Positions 37,045 to 44,744 of a stretch of 55,601 nucleotides of DNA are shown piece by piece. Source of the DNA: Chryseobacterium koreense CCUG 49689 (lineage in GTDB: Bacteria; Bacteroidota; Bacteroidia; Flavobacteriales; Weeksellaceae); NCBI RefSeq assembly GCF_001045435.1, contig NZ_LFNG01000014.1, positions 1-55,601 on the forward strand, given 5' to 3'. The notes beneath the pieces were generated by a model. It ran no database searches. It saw nothing but the letters and a program-made list of their open reading frames with translations, and was not told the origin of the DNA. Each line of letters starts with the position of its first letter. The stretch's first letter is position 1. The position numbers were made by a program, and so were the translations under genes.

Positions 37045-38898
37045 TCATAGATTTAGGATGAAGCATAGATGAACTCCTTTTTCAGATTCAATGATGTGAA
37101 AGTCACCCGCCAAAAGCGCCATCCTTCGTTTCATACTTGAAATACCGTTTCCCTTCATGAATTTTTGGGGGGATATACCGACTCCATCATCTTTTAAGGT
37201 GATGATAAGCTGACAATCGGTCTGCTCAAAATTAAAGTTTACGTTTTTCGCAGAACTATGTTTGTAAACATTGTTCATTCCTTCCTTCAGACAGAGAAAC
37301 AGATTTCTTCGGGTTTCTGCCGAGATCATCGCATTTGAAAGGTTTGATGAATGAAAGTGGACATCTGTAATGGCTTTATTAAAGAAATTCTGCGCATAAT
37401 TTGTTACATAAAAAACAAAATTCTGCACATTGTCATTTTTAGAATTGAGACTCCACAACATTTCCCTCATCGAAAGATGCATGTCCGCCGAGGTATTCAG
37501 AAGGTCATCTAAATCTTCTCTCACATTTTCGTCCCGCACCTTATTTCGGATATACTCGATCTGCAATTTCATGGCGGAAATTCCCGCTCCCAAATCGTCA
37601 TGCATATCATCTGAAATCCTTTCGCGTTCGCGCTGAATATCTCTTTCTCGCTCTAGTTCGTGGGTCAACAGCTGTAGCTTTATTTCACTTTTTTCTTTCT
37701 CTGACTTGGTGTAGTTGTAAATCATTGTGGTAATAAAGGCCATAAGGTTGACCAAAATGGCGAATTGAAGCAATTTGAAGGAACTAAGACTTAGGTTTAC
37801 CCAGCCAGCTTTTCCGTCGAAGATTCTGTTCCATAACACTTCTAGAGAACTGATGGTGATCAAGGTCAAACCGATTGCACCCAATTTATAAAAAGCGGTG
37901 TTCAGCCGATTACCATAGACAAAAATCAAAATAGTCACCAGGACCAACGAATCTAAGATTGAAGCAAAACCGAGATAATGAGAAGCAAAAAAGGCAAGAT
38001 TATGATTTGTGAAATCAGTCAGTTCCACTAATATTTGCACGATCCAAAATATAATCCCGATTGTGGTGACTTTATGAACGAGTGATTTCTTCGGGATATC
38101 AAAAAAATTTCGATAAAAAAGGTAATACAGCAGCATATTCACATCGCCCAATGCGTTCCAGAAATGACTGTTGGTCATAAAGGGTACAAAAGATGGTTCA
38201 ACGATCAAAAAGTTGGATCTGGAGAGAAAGTAAACAGCATCTGTAATATTAATTAGGAGAAAGGGTATCACATAATGCGAGAACTCCTCGCGTCCGTTGA
38301 ACAACAGGAACAGAACCGCAATTAAGAATAAACAAAATTCAAAACCTGCGGTTAACAGAATGATGGAATTAATACTAAAAGAATCCGGATTATTATAGAG
38401 AAAATAGGACGCATAAAAAGTGGGAACCGACAGCATATATCTTTCCGAGGAGATTTTTAGAAGAAATGTTTTTTCGCTGAAGGGAGCAACTGCAATCGCT
38501 CCATAATTTTTTCTGATAGAGTTTTCAGAAATTCTTCCTGCAAAGCCGGAACTTCCAATCCGTATAGGTTTTGTGTTTTCCATGCTATACAGTTCCATTT
38601 TTGCAATTTGATTTTTGCAAAAGATGAAAACGGTATCCCTTGCCGTGCTTTTAATAGAGAACTTGATCCACACCGCCTTTTTGGATTCCACATCCATTTT
38701 GCTGAATTCATCATAAGGGATGAACACTTTTGGAATTTCATTTTTGGAATCAATCACAGCAAATTGAGCATGTTCATTGAGCGGAATTCCATTTAATGAG
38801 TTTGATTGGTTGATAACAATATCCTTGCCTTTGACGCAGGAGAATGTCATCATGAGAAATAATAAGAAAAAGAGATTGGACTTTATTCCGTTAATCAT
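37045..38898 (-). CDS. Sensor histidine kinase with 7TM (7TMR-DISM-like) sensor and HisKA_3 core
   Basis: This 617-residue protein has an N-terminal signal sequence (to about 25, with a lipobox-like FSC) and a periplasmic beta-rich domain (about 30-180). It contains KAVWIKFSIKS, as in 7TMR-DISM extracellular domains. About seven hydrophobic segments span roughly 185-400. The kinase part has the dimerisation motif ERISDDMHDDLG with phospho-acceptor H433, and a HATPase_c domain (GMNNVYKHSSA, DDGVGI) at the end. It is of the NarX/DesK type. The gene lies 13 nt downstream of its response regulator, which is divergent from the exported-protein cluster at 39829. Confidence 0.92.
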   Translation of the reverse strand: MINGIKSNLFFLLFLMMTFSCVKGKDIVINQSNSLNGIPLNEHAQFAVIDSKNEIPKVFIPYDEFSKMDVESKKAVWIKFSIKSTARDTVFIFCKNQIAKMELYSMENTKPIRIGSSGFAGRISENSIRKNYGAIAVAPFSEKTFLLKISSERYMLSVPTFYASYFLYNNPDSFSINSIILLTAGFEFCLFLIAVLFLLFNGREEFSHYVIPFLLINITDAVYFLSRSNFLIVEPSFVPFMTNSHFWNALGDVNMLLYYLFYRNFFDIPKKSLVHKVTTIGIIFWIVQILVELTDFTNHNLAFFASHYLGFASILDSLVLVTILIFVYGNRLNTAFYKLGAIGLTLITISSLEVLWNRIFDGKAGWVNLSLSSFKLLQFAILVNLMAFITTMIYNYTKSEKEKSEIKLQLLTHELERERDIQRERERISDDMHDDLGAGISAMKLQIEYIRNKVRDENVREDLDDLLNTSADMHLSMREMLWSLNSKNDNVQNFVFYVTNYAQNFFNKAITDVHFHSSNLSNAMISAETRRNLFLCLKEGMNNVYKHSSAKNVNFNFEQTDCQLIITLKDDGVGISPQKFMKGNGISSMKRRMALLAGDFHIIESEKGVHLCFILNL

Positions 38899-38911: not shown

Positions 38912-39541
38912 TTACTTGAACGGCTGGCTCAGTTTATTAATCGCCTCAATTTTATTACTGACCTGCAATTTGCGATAGATACTCCCAATATGTTTTTTCA
39001 CGGTGTCCAGTGCAATGCATTTTTTATCCGCAATTTCTTTATAGAGCAACCCTTGAGCTAGCATTTCCAACACCTCTTTCTCGGTTTGGGTGAGGATGGT
39101 GGTTTCATTATTTCTTTTCTCCTCCCGAAAAAACTGCAAAACTTTTTTTGCTACTGAAAAGCTCATGGGTGCACCGCCATTATGGACTTCTTTCACAGCA
39201 TTAATAATTTTGCCCATACTGTCTCCCTTCACCAAATAGCCAGACGCTCCAGATTTTAGAGATTTAAAGATATTCTCTTCATCTTCGAAACTGGTGCACA
39301 TGATAAATTGGGTTTTTTCCATCTCGGCACTCAATTTATGCACGATATCTGTACCCGAAATATCCGGCAGCTTAATGTCAATCAGCACCACGTCGGGTTT
39401 GCAGAAAGCCAGTTCGCGCATCGCTACTCTACCTTCAAAAAATTGCTGAACGCAAAGTAGTTCTTCATCGAAATCTACAATTTTTTTCAATGCGTTATTA
39501 TAGTGTCGGTCGTCCTCCACAATGGCTATTTTGATTGGCAT
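38912..39541 (-). CDS. Response regulator, NarL/FixJ (LuxR HTH) family
   Basis: This 209-residue protein has a receiver domain with acidic pocket E9-D10-D11, phospho-acceptor D55 (VLIDIKLPD) and a switch Thr/Ser region (MCTSF). A C-terminal LuxR-type helix-turn-helix follows (about 148-205, LTQTEKEVLEMLAQG and VKKHIGSIYRKL). It is encoded immediately upstream of the histidine kinase on the same strand. It faces a 287-bp intergenic region that contains two copies of an ACCCTTTT-type motif, candidate binding sites for this regulator. Confidence 0.95.
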   Translation of the reverse strand: MPIKIAIVEDDRHYNNALKKIVDFDEELLCVQQFFEGRVAMRELAFCKPDVVLIDIKLPDISGTDIVHKLSAEMEKTQFIMCTSFEDEENIFKSLKSGASGYLVKGDSMGKIINAVKEVHNGGAPMSFSVAKKVLQFFREEKRNNETTILTQTEKEVLEMLAQGLLYKEIADKKCIALDTVKKHIGSIYRKLQVSNKIEAINKLSQPFK

Positions 39542-39593
39542 GGTTCAAGGTTTAAAAAAGCAAATATCCTTTAAAAACAAAACGTGTACAATT

Positions 39594-39724
39594 ACCCTTT
39601 TGGGTGATATTGCAAAACTGTATGGATGTTTTTGTTTCGATAAAAGTAACTAAAAAAACATTGCCTTGAAACCAAAATTATTAAACGAATGTTTAATTAA
39701 AAATCACCCTTTTGTGGTATTGCA
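39594..39724 (+). promoter_or_regulatory. Repeated motifs in the divergent region between the two-component genes and the exported-protein cluster
   Basis: ACCCTTTTGGGT (a perfect dyad, 39594-39605) followed by ATATTGCA recurs at 39706-39724 as ACCCTTTTGTGGT followed by ATTGCA, 112 bp further on. A second word, AAACTGTATG, occurs at 39615-39624 and again at 39767-39776. The paired repeats suggest regulator binding sites. No clear TAnnTTTG element was found before the cluster. Confidence 0.5.
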
Positions 39725-39828: not shown

Positions 39829-41061
39829 ATGAGAAAATCTACCCTTTTATTTACGTTTTTTTGTGCAGGTTTATTTTTTGCACAAAAATATTCCATTTCA
39901 AAAAAAGACTCTGTAAGCATAGATTACCGGAGAAGTTCCCTTTCTACATTCATGCTGGACAACAAATCGATCGAGTATGACGATGCAGTTCAGAATGCAT
40001 TTATGACCAAATTCACCCCGGACAAATATAACAACCACAATTTGCCTGACGACACCCGATTAATTCCCAAAAATGAGTTGAACATTGATGATGTGAAATA
40101 TCTTGAAAATTTCCTCAATGAACAGAAAATCGGAAACGAACTGGTAGCAAAATGGTTCAACCGAAGTAAAAAAGGCGCATTTGATGCCGATCTGGTGTTG
40201 AAAAGAGGATTTTATGATGCCAAGGAACTGGACCGGAAAATCGCACAGAACACCTCCCGCGGAGAGTCATCTTTGGGAGATAAGGGTGCTGAGTTAATTG
40301 ATAATACCTTCGTCATTGTCATGAAATCCAATTACACCAACAAGGAAAATATAGCCAAAGGTCTTGGAGCAGGACTTTCATTGCTATCGCAGAGCTTTCT
40401 ACAAGAGGGAAACCAACTCGCGTCCTCATTGACGGATCTCACAAAACTGACCACCGACACTTTCGGCAAAGGTTTTTGGGTAGGGACCAAATCCTACCTC
40501 TTCAAGCTGGTTTGGGATGCGGATACCAGAGATCGCTTCTACAACGAACTTTGGGCTGATGAAAAATCAATTACTCCCGAAAAGAAAGCAGCTTTTGATA
40601 ACGCTGATTATTTCAAAGTAAAATTTGTGGGCCAAACAAAAACTGGTGCAGATATTCAATCCTCCACGCTATCTGGCAAATCAAACGAGCAACTGGTGGA
40701 AAGAGCGACCATTAAATCATTTGATAAGGCCATCAACAATCTTCAAAAATCTTACGATGTCTTTTCCGTTAAAATCCCCGTGTTTACAGTGGATCCGGTA
40801 ATTACCATTAAAGCCGGGATGAAAGAGGGAATTGATAAGAAGTCGAAATTTGATGTTTTGGAGAGGGTCATTAAAGAGGATGGTACAGAAGAGCTTGTGG
40901 TAGTAGGGAAAATGAAAGTGGATACCAACTATCCGATCTGGGACAACAGATATGGTGCAGATGAAGAAAATCCAAATCAAGAAGTGGATGTAACCGTATT
41001 GAAGGTGAGTAAAATGAAAGGCGACATTGTTCCCGGAATGTTATTAATGCAAACAAACTAA
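39829..41061 (+). CDS. Exported protein of unknown function, first gene of the envelope cluster
   Basis: This 410-residue protein has a Sec signal peptide ending near FFAQ (residue about 19). The mature protein has an RGFYDAKELDRKIAQ segment in the middle (about 126-140) and a hydrophobic Gly/Leu/Ser-rich stretch, KGLGAGLSLLSQ. The last roughly 90 residues look like a small beta-barrel (DVLERVIKEDG, VVVGKMKV, PGMLL). I recall similar uncharacterised proteins in Bacteroidales but know no function. It is followed 11 nt later by the next cluster gene. It is likely periplasmic or outer-membrane associated. Confidence 0.75.
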   Translation: MRKSTLLFTFFCAGLFFAQKYSISKKDSVSIDYRRSSLSTFMLDNKSIEYDDAVQNAFMTKFTPDKYNNHNLPDDTRLIPKNELNIDDVKYLENFLNEQKIGNELVAKWFNRSKKGAFDADLVLKRGFYDAKELDRKIAQNTSRGESSLGDKGAELIDNTFVIVMKSNYTNKENIAKGLGAGLSLLSQSFLQEGNQLASSLTDLTKLTTDTFGKGFWVGTKSYLFKLVWDADTRDRFYNELWADEKSITPEKKAAFDNADYFKVKFVGQTKTGADIQSSTLSGKSNEQLVERATIKSFDKAINNLQKSYDVFSVKIPVFTVDPVITIKAGMKEGIDKKSKFDVLERVIKEDGTEELVVVGKMKVDTNYPIWDNRYGADEENPNQEVDVTVLKVSKMKGDIVPGMLLMQTN

Positions 41062-41072
41062 AATAAATTGCT

Positions 41073-41573
41073 ATGAAAAAATTAATCCTAATCCTTATCT
41101 TGTTTCTGTCTGTAAACTCATTTGCACAGAATGGAAAAAATGACAAAAACACCCGGGAATGGAAATATGAAATCGAATGTGCCGGTGTTGGCCAAGACGG
41201 AAGCTATCTGGTGAGGGTTTTCTCTTTCGAGAAAACAAGGAAATTGGTCATTGAGCAGGCAAAGAAAAATGCGGTACACGGTGTGATTTTCAAAGGATTC
41301 ATCGGAAATTCCGAATGCGGCACACAAAAACCACTGGCCAAAAACCCAAATGCAGAAGCTGAAAATGAACATTTCTTCAACAATTTCTTTATGGATGGAG
41401 GAAAATACATGAAATACGTAACACTATCTACCGACGGGAATGTAGATCCAAAAGACATCGTGAAAGTTGGGAAAGAGTACAAACTAGGAATTATCGTTAC
41501 CGTATCAAAAGATCTCTTGAGAAAAGACCTAGAAGCCGCAGGAATCATCAAGAGTTTCTCATCCATGTTCTAA
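41073..41573 (+). CDS. Exported protein of unknown function, paralogue of the lipoprotein at 41668
   Basis: This 166-residue protein has a signal peptide ending at about residue 19 (NSFAQ). The mature protein has an ordered pattern: IECAGVGQDGSYLVRVFSF, then EQAKKNAVHGVIFKGF, a CGTQKPLA loop, FFNNFFMDGG, and a final YKLGIIVTVSKDLLRKDLE. The alternating strand and helix pattern is compatible with the TolB-N/CsgG-like fold of envelope lipoproteins (inference). The same pattern recurs in the next gene. It lies 11 nt after gene one of the cluster. Confidence 0.75.
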   Translation: MKKLILILILFLSVNSFAQNGKNDKNTREWKYEIECAGVGQDGSYLVRVFSFEKTRKLVIEQAKKNAVHGVIFKGFIGNSECGTQKPLAKNPNAEAENEHFFNNFFMDGGKYMKYVTLSTDGNVDPKDIVKVGKEYKLGIIVTVSKDLLRKDLEAAGIIKSFSSMF

Positions 41574-41667
41574 AAATAATCAGCCGAAATCAAATCCGGA
41601 AAAAAACACCCAAAGGAAAATTCCTCCGCAAAAAAAACAACGGTCCAAAAACCAAAATTATCGGAAA

Positions 41668-42144
41668 ATGAAAAAATTAATACTTATCACCTCTGCCCTC
41701 GTTTTTCTGAGCAGCTGTCAATCCTACAAGCCAGAATATGACTTAGGCAATTATTCGCTTAAAACCATCGGCATCAGAAATGAGCTCGATGGAAATATAC
41801 TGGTAAAAGTTTCCGCTCGTGGAACTACCTACGAAGAAGTAAAAGCTAATGCATTGAAAACTGCACTCAACGATATTTTCTTAAAAGGCATCGATCAGGG
41901 TCCAAAAGACTGCATCAAGCTCCCGCTTTTTCAAAACAAGCAAGATGCCCCCGAAACAAAGCAGTGGCTGCTTGCCTTTTTTTCAAATGAAGGAAATATA
42001 GGTGATTACGCATCCATCTACCGGGAATTTGCCACTTATGAACAAAAGCGCGATTTAAAATACACCCAAAACCAAGCATTAAGTTTCGAAGTCCTGTTAA
42101 AATACAGCGCTTTAGAAGGTTTGGTAAAAAGACTTAACCCATAA
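41668..42144 (+). CDS. Lipoprotein paralogous to the 41073 product
   Basis: This 158-residue lipoprotein is processed at C17 (FLSSC). It aligns with the preceding protein along its length: IGIRNELDGNILVKVSARG, ANALKTALNDIFLKGI, DCIKLPLF and LLAFFSNEGN correspond in order and spacing to GVGQDGSYLVRV, AKKNAVHGVIFKGF, CGTQKPLA and FFNNFFMDGG. It is therefore probably a membrane-anchored partner of the soluble paralogue. It is separated from it by 94 nt without a terminator, and from the DUF6175 gene by 3 nt. Confidence 0.75.
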   Translation: MKKLILITSALVFLSSCQSYKPEYDLGNYSLKTIGIRNELDGNILVKVSARGTTYEEVKANALKTALNDIFLKGIDQGPKDCIKLPLFQNKQDAPETKQWLLAFFSNEGNIGDYASIYREFATYEQKRDLKYTQNQALSFEVLLKYSALEGLVKRLNP

Positions 42145-42147
42145 ACT

Positions 42148-43098
42148 ATGAAAACAAAATTATTACCGATTGTGCTGGTTTTGATGGCACAAGCATTTTT
42201 TGCACAGGGTGCGAAAAAACCAATCCTAATGCTTTTCCCTGAAGACAGTTGGTGTACCCGAAACGGATTTATGGAAAAAGATGGAAATGGTGAAGACCAA
42301 TGCAACTACACCAGAGCTTTCAAGGAAAGTGATGAACTAAACCTGGTGATGAGCAAAATTGGCGAAATTTTCACTGACCGAACCGATGGGAAATTCAACA
42401 TCAGAGCATTCGCACAAAACCAGAAAATTCAGTCTAAAACAAATGCCAGAGCTGGGATGGAAAGTAAAGACGGAGCCCAAATCAAGACCTCTGCCGTAAA
42501 TGATTTGGTTTCCGGGCAAAGCAATTTTGATTTAGGCATCTATGTGAATTTCTATTTTGCGAAAGAAGGACCGAAAAATTCTCTGAAATTCGACTTCAAC
42601 GCCAAAGATAATTATACCGGTGAACAAGTTGCCAGTTCACCCGACCTGGTCGGAAAATCTACTTATTCCAGCGATATTTTGTCCATGGTGGCAGAAACCA
42701 TCAATAACAAAGTGGATCCATTTTTTAATCAAATCGAGAACTATTTTTCCGATATGGCAGAAAATGGAAGAAAAGCACAGTTCGTGTTCGGGTTGTTCAA
42801 TGATATGAAAGAGGATTTCGAAACAGAAATAAACGGTCAGACTCTCGATAATCACATTGAAGACTGGTTCTCCAGCAATGCGGTGAAAGGAAAATACAAT
42901 CTCACTGAGTCTTCGGAAGTGATGCTCAATTTTGAAGAAGTCAGAATCCCCGTTTTTGATGCAAACGGACGTGCAGTAAGTGCCGATATTTTTGCGAGAG
43001 GAATCAAGAAAACCTTCGAAGCAGCCCCATATAATTTCAAAGTTACTGTGAAAAGAACTGGAATGGGCAAAACATCAATCTACTTTTCAAAAAAATAA
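42148..43098 (+). CDS. DUF6175 family exported protein
   Basis: This 316-residue protein has a signal peptide ending near FFAQG (residue about 21). The first mature strand is KPILMLFPEDSWC, followed by the RAFKESDELNLVMSKIGEIF helix. Further on are SNFDLGIYVNFYF, a DNHIEDWFSSNAVKGKYN block and a C-terminal FEEVRIPVF region. I recognise this as DUF6175, a family common in Bacteroidetes without a known function. The first half resembles TolB-N/LpoB/CsgG-like domains (inference). The gene is tightly packed, with 3 nt upstream and 4 nt downstream. Confidence 0.8.
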   Translation: MKTKLLPIVLVLMAQAFFAQGAKKPILMLFPEDSWCTRNGFMEKDGNGEDQCNYTRAFKESDELNLVMSKIGEIFTDRTDGKFNIRAFAQNQKIQSKTNARAGMESKDGAQIKTSAVNDLVSGQSNFDLGIYVNFYFAKEGPKNSLKFDFNAKDNYTGEQVASSPDLVGKSTYSSDILSMVAETINNKVDPFFNQIENYFSDMAENGRKAQFVFGLFNDMKEDFETEINGQTLDNHIEDWFSSNAVKGKYNLTESSEVMLNFEEVRIPVFDANGRAVSADIFARGIKKTFEAAPYNFKVTVKRTGMGKTSIYFSKK

Positions 43099-43102
43099 AG
43101 TC

Positions 43103-44035
43103 ATGAAAACAATAAAATTAATCGCACTTATTCTGGCATTTACTCCGTTGTCATTTTTTGCACAAGATGATACCGGAATAGAAATCTCCACCGCTGCAGG
43201 TTCAAGTGATTTAGCCCAAACCTATTCTAGCCTTATCGAGAATAAACTTGGTAGCCTACTCGCTCAAAACGGAATTGTTCGTGGAATAAATTCGCAATTC
43301 GAGATCTCAACCGATTTTAATGTTTTGAACACTAAAACCGCAGGTGGGGCACCACCAATGTATATTTACGAAATCATGTTTACCACAAAGATTATGAATA
43401 TTGTGGACAAAAATACCTATGCACAGGTATCTAAAGTATCAAACGGTGTGGGAAATACTTTAGCAAAAGCAGTAAACAACGCGATCAACCAGATGAATTT
43501 CAACACGCCTGAATATCAAAATTTCTTGGCCGACGCTAAAACAAAAATAGTGAATTACTATACAAAAAACTGTTCTACAATCATCAACGAAGTAAACATG
43601 CTCGAAAAAACAAACCAATACGATTTTGCACTTTATAAACTTACTTCAATTCCGTCTGCCGCAAAAAGTTGCTATTCTCAAGCCATGGCAAAAGCACAGG
43701 CTGTCTATGTGAAAAAAATCAATTATGAGTGCAAATCCAATCTGGCACAGGCCAAAATGGAATGGAGTAAAAACCCCAATGCCGAAGGTGCCGAAGCCGC
43801 TACAGCATATCTGTCACAAATTGACCCAAGTTCATCCTGTTTCAAAGAGGTGGAAGCTTTCTCAAAAACAGTTGGCACAAGAATGAAAGAGATAGACGGC
43901 AGAGAATGGAACGTGTATTACGAAAAAGAAGTGGGTCTGGAAAAAGACAGAATCCAAGCTATCAAGGAGATCGGAAAAGCTTTTGGAGCAGGACAACCAA
44001 AACAAGTTATTCATAACACCAAAATAAAGTTATAA
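43103..44035 (+). CDS. Exported protein of unknown function in the envelope cluster
   Basis: This 310-residue protein has a signal peptide ending at about FFAQ (residue 21). The first mature domain (about 25-150) has IENKLGSLLAQNGIVRG followed by strands and NVVDKN-like turns, again reminiscent of a CsgG/TolB-N-like domain. The second part (about 150-290) is mostly helical, with several cysteines (NCSTI, KSCYSQ, YECKS, SSSCF). It reads like a TPR-like helical region. I recall uncharacterised Bacteroidales relatives. It lies 4 nt after the DUF6175 gene and 2 nt before the porin-like gene. Confidence 0.72.
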   Translation: MKTIKLIALILAFTPLSFFAQDDTGIEISTAAGSSDLAQTYSSLIENKLGSLLAQNGIVRGINSQFEISTDFNVLNTKTAGGAPPMYIYEIMFTTKIMNIVDKNTYAQVSKVSNGVGNTLAKAVNNAINQMNFNTPEYQNFLADAKTKIVNYYTKNCSTIINEVNMLEKTNQYDFALYKLTSIPSAAKSCYSQAMAKAQAVYVKKINYECKSNLAQAKMEWSKNPNAEGAEAATAYLSQIDPSSSCFKEVEAFSKTVGTRMKEIDGREWNVYYEKEVGLEKDRIQAIKEIGKAFGAGQPKQVIHNTKIKL

Positions 44036-44037
44036 CG

Positions 44038-44643
44038 ATGAAAAATCTACTATTAAAACTGTTTGCTCTTAGTACGTTAATGGTTTTCACCGGAATTCAG
44101 GGGCAGAAAACCAGCAAATACAAGAAAAAATCAGGTCCGGATTTTAAGTTTGGGGCGCTGGTTGGTGCAAACTACGCCAATATCAATGGATGGGATTCCT
44201 CTGCAGATCCAAAATTTATTTTTGGAATCAATGCCGGAATGTACACCTACTATCAATTCAGTGAAAAAATAGGTTTGCAACTTGAAGCGACATATACAAA
44301 TTTTGGATCCGATGTGAAATTTGAAACTGCAGGGACTACCTTAAAGGAAAGACTTGATTACATCGCAATCCCGCTTCTTTTGAAGCCGCGATTCGACAAT
44401 TTTTACATTACCGCAGGACCACAATTACTGATTTTGGTTTCTGCAAAAGAAAATGGACACGATATTAAAGAAAGTCTGAATACCACGGATTTCGGTTTGA
44501 CAGGCGGTTTGGGATATTACTTCACAGAAAATTTCGGTATTGATTTAAGATATACACATGGAATGTCCGACATAGTAAAAGACAGCACATTTGAAAAGTT
44601 AACCAACAATGCGTTTGCTGGAAGGCTTTTCTATCAATTTTAA
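44038..44643 (+). CDS. Outer-membrane beta-barrel protein (porin/PorT-like family)
   Basis: This 201-residue protein has a signal peptide (to about 22) and then alternating amphipathic strands with Gly and aromatic residues (FKFGALVGANYANI, GLQLEATYTNFG, GIDLRYTHGM). It ends in a C-terminal Phe (RLFYQF), as in barrel proteins. It fits the 8-stranded outer-membrane beta-barrel family widespread in Bacteroidetes. As the last gene of the cluster it may anchor the other exported proteins at the outer membrane. A perfect hairpin follows at 44717. Confidence 0.85.
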   Translation: MKNLLLKLFALSTLMVFTGIQGQKTSKYKKKSGPDFKFGALVGANYANINGWDSSADPKFIFGINAGMYTYYQFSEKIGLQLEATYTNFGSDVKFETAGTTLKERLDYIAIPLLLKPRFDNFYITAGPQLLILVSAKENGHDIKESLNTTDFGLTGGLGYYFTENFGIDLRYTHGMSDIVKDSTFEKLTNNAFAGRLFYQF

Positions 44644-44716: not shown

Positions 44717-44744
44717 CACTGCCAAAGCTTTTGCTTTGGCAGTG
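44717..44744 (+). terminator. Perfect 12-bp hairpin after the envelope cluster
   Basis: CACTGCCAAAGC (44717-44728) and GCTTTGGCAGTG (44733-44744) are perfect complements around TTTT. The following sequence is not T-rich (CTGCTTTCT), so it may be a weak terminator or an RNA-stabilising structure. Confidence 0.55.

Follow-up and report, generated by a model that had tools for sequence, protein, structure and literature searches.

A co-inherited gene module of Chryseobacterium koreense and its relatives with predicted FlgT- and CsgG-like envelope proteins

CsgG and PelC are known to form rings in the outer membrane, and the structure entries matched in our searches name a PelC dodecamer in their titles. 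In Vibrio, the proteins FlgT, FlgP and FlgO make up the H-ring, which stabilizes the basal body and aids the filament in crossing the outer membrane (PMC6814793, PMC6375700). Here, we focused on six consecutive genes (g1 to g6; Table 1) on contig C14 of genome G000 (Chryseobacterium koreense CCUG 49689; 3.15 Mb); this contig, 55,601 nucleotides long, is referred to as the window. The six plus-strand open reading frames picked out in an earlier sequence-only reading proved real, with identical coordinates. We show that the six genes are inherited together as a module, and we give about even weight to the reading that their products build a ring-like complex on the periplasmic side of the outer membrane, serving as a collar or scaffold and not as an open secretion pore.

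The evidence for a module comes from the joint distribution of the genes. Phylum-wide, 11 of 247 genomes carry the DUF6175 gene, g4; within the family, 20 of 197 do, and g5 was found in the identical 20 of these 197. Strong g2-like matches occurred in 19 of these 20 genomes (all except G304), with three marginal matches elsewhere, in a search that scored at most 19 candidates per genome, and the 7 of 197 family genomes with g1 all lie inside the same 20. Taking genomes as independent, the overlap expected by chance is ∼1e-27 for g4 and g5 and ∼4e-8 for the g1 subset, figures that kinship among the genomes makes far too small. Given that the module is distributed patchily (8 of 33 genera), genome kinship alone is insufficient to explain the co-occurrence of g4, g5 and g1. 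We then compared 29 neighborhoods, namely, those of the window, of 10 genomes that the phylum-wide search had identified and of 18 among the 19 other family genomes (without G309). The g5 gene directly follows g4 in 28 of them, the exception being G237, where a 76-amino-acid open reading frame was called between the two on the same strand. A g2-like gene is separate in 20 neighborhoods, fused in 6, absent from G304 and cut by contig ends in 2; outside the window, the only separate g6-like genes found were those of Chryseobacterium sp. R2A-55 and Kaistella chaponensis. A check of neighborhood conservation had been proposed together with the sequence-only reading, and it showed the genes to be co-conserved and not scattered.

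The slot upstream of g2 is filled in alternative ways. Across the 20 family genomes, it holds g1 in 7, a protein matching the CsgG Pfam model in 12 and a CsgG-like relative assigned by clustering in 1 (G312), and g1 and a CsgG-like protein were never found together at the locus. Exceptions to the layout are G279, where g1 and the DUF6175 gene are on different contigs; G399, where the CsgG-like gene lies beside g2 on another small contig; and G352, where the CsgG-like gene is displaced downstream. Slot proteins tested singly matched CsgG (E values of up to 6.5e-16) or LpoB (7.3e-10), with subthreshold matches to FlgT_C (0.014) and FlgT_M (0.013), and the slot protein of G158 stayed below every cutoff. 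The statement that no known secretion component is present therefore holds inside the window but not for the relatives, since in 13 of the 20 family genomes with the module a CsgG-like protein takes the place of g1. The strong CsgG matches in relatives (frames of ∼460 amino acids, E values near 1e-65) are separate loci. Database searches with g1 gave 649 matches; among the 120 matches listed, some are named Flavobacterium or Pedobacter, and an N-terminal extension was seen in the two longer ones examined (P0088 and P0102). At one locus (L053, in G365), two CsgG-like genes lie near each other upstream of the module. Beside the CsgG-like gene, an exported, probably helical protein of 176 to 216 amino acids recurs in eight loci (L050 to L057) and may be a further subunit; the one member tested had no Pfam match above the cutoff.

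In more distant relatives, parts of the module are fused. DUF6175 carries a g2-type N-terminal domain in six genomes of other classes, and in all six the next gene, in the g5 position, matches LPP20 (PF02169). When 121 DUF6175 database proteins were searched with a profile built from separate g2/g3 genes, 117 gave a match to the g2-type domain, and g2 matches the N-terminal domain of the fused proteins at 99.9% in hhalign. P0231 is 38% identical to the g2 and 29% identical to the g4 of the window, and P0236 (622 amino acids) is a single chain that contains CsgG, a subthreshold TPR stretch, a domain of the g2 type and DUF6175, with a FlgO Pfam match just above the cutoff. Some g1-like proteins (533 to 597 amino acids) have longer C-terminal tails, of which three of four give barrel matches below the cutoff and that of L065 gives none, so that a fusion of g1 to a barrel in some relatives is only suggested; g6 is matched to these tails by position, and a search with g6 reaches the separate barrels of close kin and not the long g1-like proteins. 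These observations bear on the idea that the genes form a cassette held in common for regulation or transfer only, with products that serve unrelated envelope tasks. The patchy distribution of the module and the genes upstream and downstream of it, which vary between relatives, would fit such a cassette, but the fusions of parts in distant lineages and the alternation of g1 and CsgG-like proteins in one slot argue against it, and we regard it as very improbable.

Structure prediction places several of the products among known folds. The best solved match to the g1 model was FlgT (E value of 4e-7), followed by CsgG, and the model follows the FlgT pattern of a TolB-N-like M domain succeeded by a FlgT-C domain; g1 is thus predicted to be a FlgT-M+C-like pair. 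For a fused g2 plus DUF6175 relative, FlgT again ranked first, ahead of GNA1162 (E value of 3.4e-3), CsgG and PelC, and the N-terminal half of DUF6175 is predicted to adopt the CsgG/PelC/TolB-N fold. The g2-type domain in this model, examined as part of the whole-model search, has the order strand-helix-insert-strand-strand-helix described for FlgP, with a helical insert as opposed to the β-hairpin in FlgP. Pfam models of FlgT, FlgO and LPP20 did not match the window proteins (E values of up to 1 for FlgT), and LPP20 had no match anywhere in G000. Nothing convincing came from sequence searches of the PDB with g4, g5, g2 and g1 profiles; the profile of the CsgG-like family reached CsgG at an E value of 0.04 only.

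We also compared domain profiles in 66 pairs, of which 3 are of the same family by construction. The top pairs among the 63 others matched the N-terminal domain of the CsgG-like family with those of the fused DUF6175 (82%), of g5 (55%) and of the window-type DUF6175 (50%), followed by the C-terminal domains of the CsgG-like family and g1 (39%) and of g1 and the fused DUF6175 (17%); the rest reached at most 6.1%. Whole-length comparison with the CsgG-like family, signal peptides included, gave 93% for g4, compared with 50% when the signal region is excluded, and 95% for g5; for g1, whole-length values were weak (12% and 27%). In the 66-pair comparison, g2 had no match to the CsgG-like domains, and it matched neither g4 nor g5 beyond the signal peptides. 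The TolB-N/CsgG-like fold that had been proposed for three or four of the products thus fits g1 by its predicted structure, DUF6175 by that of the fused relative and, weakly, g5 by its profile; the domain of g2 and g3 is probably closer to FlgT-N/SHS2 than to TolB-N. Another reading takes the products as LpoB- or TolB-like regulators of cell wall or envelope upkeep that act as separate periplasmic proteins without a ring. In the fold searches, CsgG, PelC and FlgT rank above TolB, and the fusions and strict co-inheritance point to joint assembly, which makes this explanation improbable.

If the products do assemble into an outer membrane ring, as we infer, they would form one complex that uses domain types predicted to be those of flagellar FlgT and curli CsgG. 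The base ring would be made by g1 or its CsgG-like stand-in, with g4 and g5 adding stacked or concentric rings. The g2 and g3 products may be SHS2-type subunits, g3 being lipid anchored in the outer membrane, and the g6 barrel could tie the ring to the membrane. As to what passes through or rests on such a ring, gliding or secretion machinery would be our guess.

Known machines that use these domains were considered next. The absence of FlhA (PF00771), CsgG and CsgF matches in G000 shows that the module there belongs to neither a flagellum nor a curli system. FlhA is missing from 28 of 30 module genomes and lies on other contigs in the 2 that have it (control, 4 of 14). CsgF was found in 10 of the 30, in 9 family genomes beside a separate strong CsgG; in G158, it is on contig C32 and the module on C39. 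Membership in the type IX secretion system (PorT/PorU) was rejected as well, as every NCBIfam match remained below its cutoff. The export channel reading would make the module a CsgG- or PelBC-like portal for some secreted polymer, with the g6 barrel and with TolB-N proteins as a gating ring; the CsgG Pfam match of the alternative slot protein, the fold matches to CsgG, PelC and PelBC and the presence of a barrel gene in the window are in keeping with it. However, in the stretch that we take to hold the second membrane hairpin of CsgG, the slot proteins have 10 to 38 residues in the 8 measured of 11 aligned (20 in five of them) versus 48 in Escherichia coli, lengths that were counted directly because automatic alignment misplaced the hairpin region. 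This shortening would argue against a curli-type pore. Together with the lack of CsgF in G000, the small size of g6 for a channel (201 amino acids) and the absence of a substrate gene among the seven scanned flanking genes of the window (the flanks of relatives being mostly unannotated), it leads us to consider an export channel unlikely.

Positions of the cluster and its surroundings are given in Table 1. Four of the five intergenic distances from g1 to g6 (11, 94, 3, 4 and 2 nucleotides) agree with the spacing of mostly 2 to 11 nucleotides reported before, the gap of 94 between g2 and g3 being the exception. Pfam matches above the cutoff were restricted to g4, g6 and the lipoprotein signal of g3, confirming the DUF6175 protein (E value of 4.9e-87; 292 bits versus a curated cutoff of 23) and the β-barrel; the closest named g4 match is that of Chryseobacterium sp. 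R2A-55 (96%). The description of g2 and g3 as paralogues, one of them a lipoprotein, also stands, as they share 23% identity and a single profile retrieves both; a crude lipobox pattern occurs in 16 of 23 members of their family. Export signals had been ascribed to all six products, and g3 passes the Pfam lipoprotein model; the others were assessed by visual inspection of the sequence, without a predictor. Terminator-like patterns are frequent here (14 seen versus 5.5 expected), and the tail of the hairpin that follows g6 is poor in T on the plus strand. A scan of seven flanking genes of the window gave housekeeping or unrelated functions (FBPase, enolase-like, GlnRS, thioredoxin-like, DUF3575, Dus and GcvP).

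Table 1 Features of the cluster and its surroundings (positions in the window)
Feature	Coordinates	Strand	Description
Histidine kinase	37045..38898	-	7TMR-DISM-like extracellular region just below cutoff; in general not part of the module
Response regulator	38912..39541	-	LuxR type; divergent from g1; in general not part of the module
Direct repeats	39590..39724 (39590-39614, 39702-39724)	+	Two copies of ACCCTTTTG..TATTGCA between response regulator and g1; candidate control sites
g1	39829..41061	+	410 aa; export signal (by eye); predicted TolB-N/CsgG-like domain ~34-312 and FlgT-C-like beta domain ~313-410
g2	41073..41573	+	166 aa; export signal (by eye); paralogue of g3; family is N-terminal domain of fused DUF6175 proteins
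g3	41668..42144	+	158 aa; predicted lipoprotein; paralogue of g2; LPAM_1 above cutoff
g4	42148..43098	+	316 aa; DUF6175 (PF19672); N-half predicted CsgG/PelC/TolB-N-like
g5	43103..44035	+	310 aa; export signal (by eye); N-half weakly CsgG-like by profile
g6	44038..44643	+	201 aa; outer membrane beta-barrel; OMP_b-brl_2 (E 1.2e-20)
Hairpin	44717..44744	+	12 pairs; 3' of g6; may act as a terminator or mark the end of the unit

The kinase and regulator genes facing the cluster, which had been cited among the grounds for one complex, are a real divergent pair, and K. chaponensis, G109 and G312 likewise carry kinase and regulator genes next to the module. In the nearest relative, R2A-55, however, the pair has decayed to a broken regulator start, with no kinase found, while the six proteins are intact and 80 to 97% identical to those of the window. 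Due to this decay, we see the two-component system as a lineage-specific regulator at most and not as a constant component of the module; its link to the module is real in some lineages and not general. Upstream of g1, R2A-55 also has two similar copies of the repeat, and K. chaponensis has one ACCCTTTTG. In the place that the two-component system occupies in the window, R2A-55 carries an array of ∼21-nucleotide repeats between a menC-like gene and g1 (L013:4944-5194).

In the open-licence PMC literature that we searched, DUF6175 is not named, and no paper was found that treats FlgT together with CsgG. Placing DUF6175 and its partners among the FlgT and CsgG folds gives several uncharacterized families a testable role. 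It is possible, and we hold this only tentatively, that the module represents a flagellum-independent outer membrane ring machine of Bacteroidota and neighboring phyla that uses the FlgT/FlgO/FlgP and CsgG domain set and is a cousin or source of flagellar H-rings and curli portals. The module differs from curli CsgG in the apparently shortened second-hairpin stretch of the CsgG-like relatives, in that G000 has neither CsgF nor CsgG and in that some relatives encode a curli-type CsgG elsewhere, and from PelC/PelBC in the second domain of g1 and DUF6175 and in having no polysaccharide gene in the scanned flanks. It resembles the Neisseria lipoprotein GNA1162 in the predicted fold of the fused relative; for GNA1162, LpoB and PelC, sequences were compared by Pfam only. 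Unlike the Vibrio FlgT/FlgP/FlgO system, it is found in a genome without the flagellar export gene, and its domains are split otherwise between chains. It is like that system in the predicted FlgT-like domains of g1 and the fused g2 plus DUF6175 relative, in encoding a lipoprotein together with TolB-N-type proteins and in the LPP20 and FlgO matches of its distant relatives, which suggests that accessory flagellar rings may be part of a wider class of outer membrane collars that also occur in cells without flagella.
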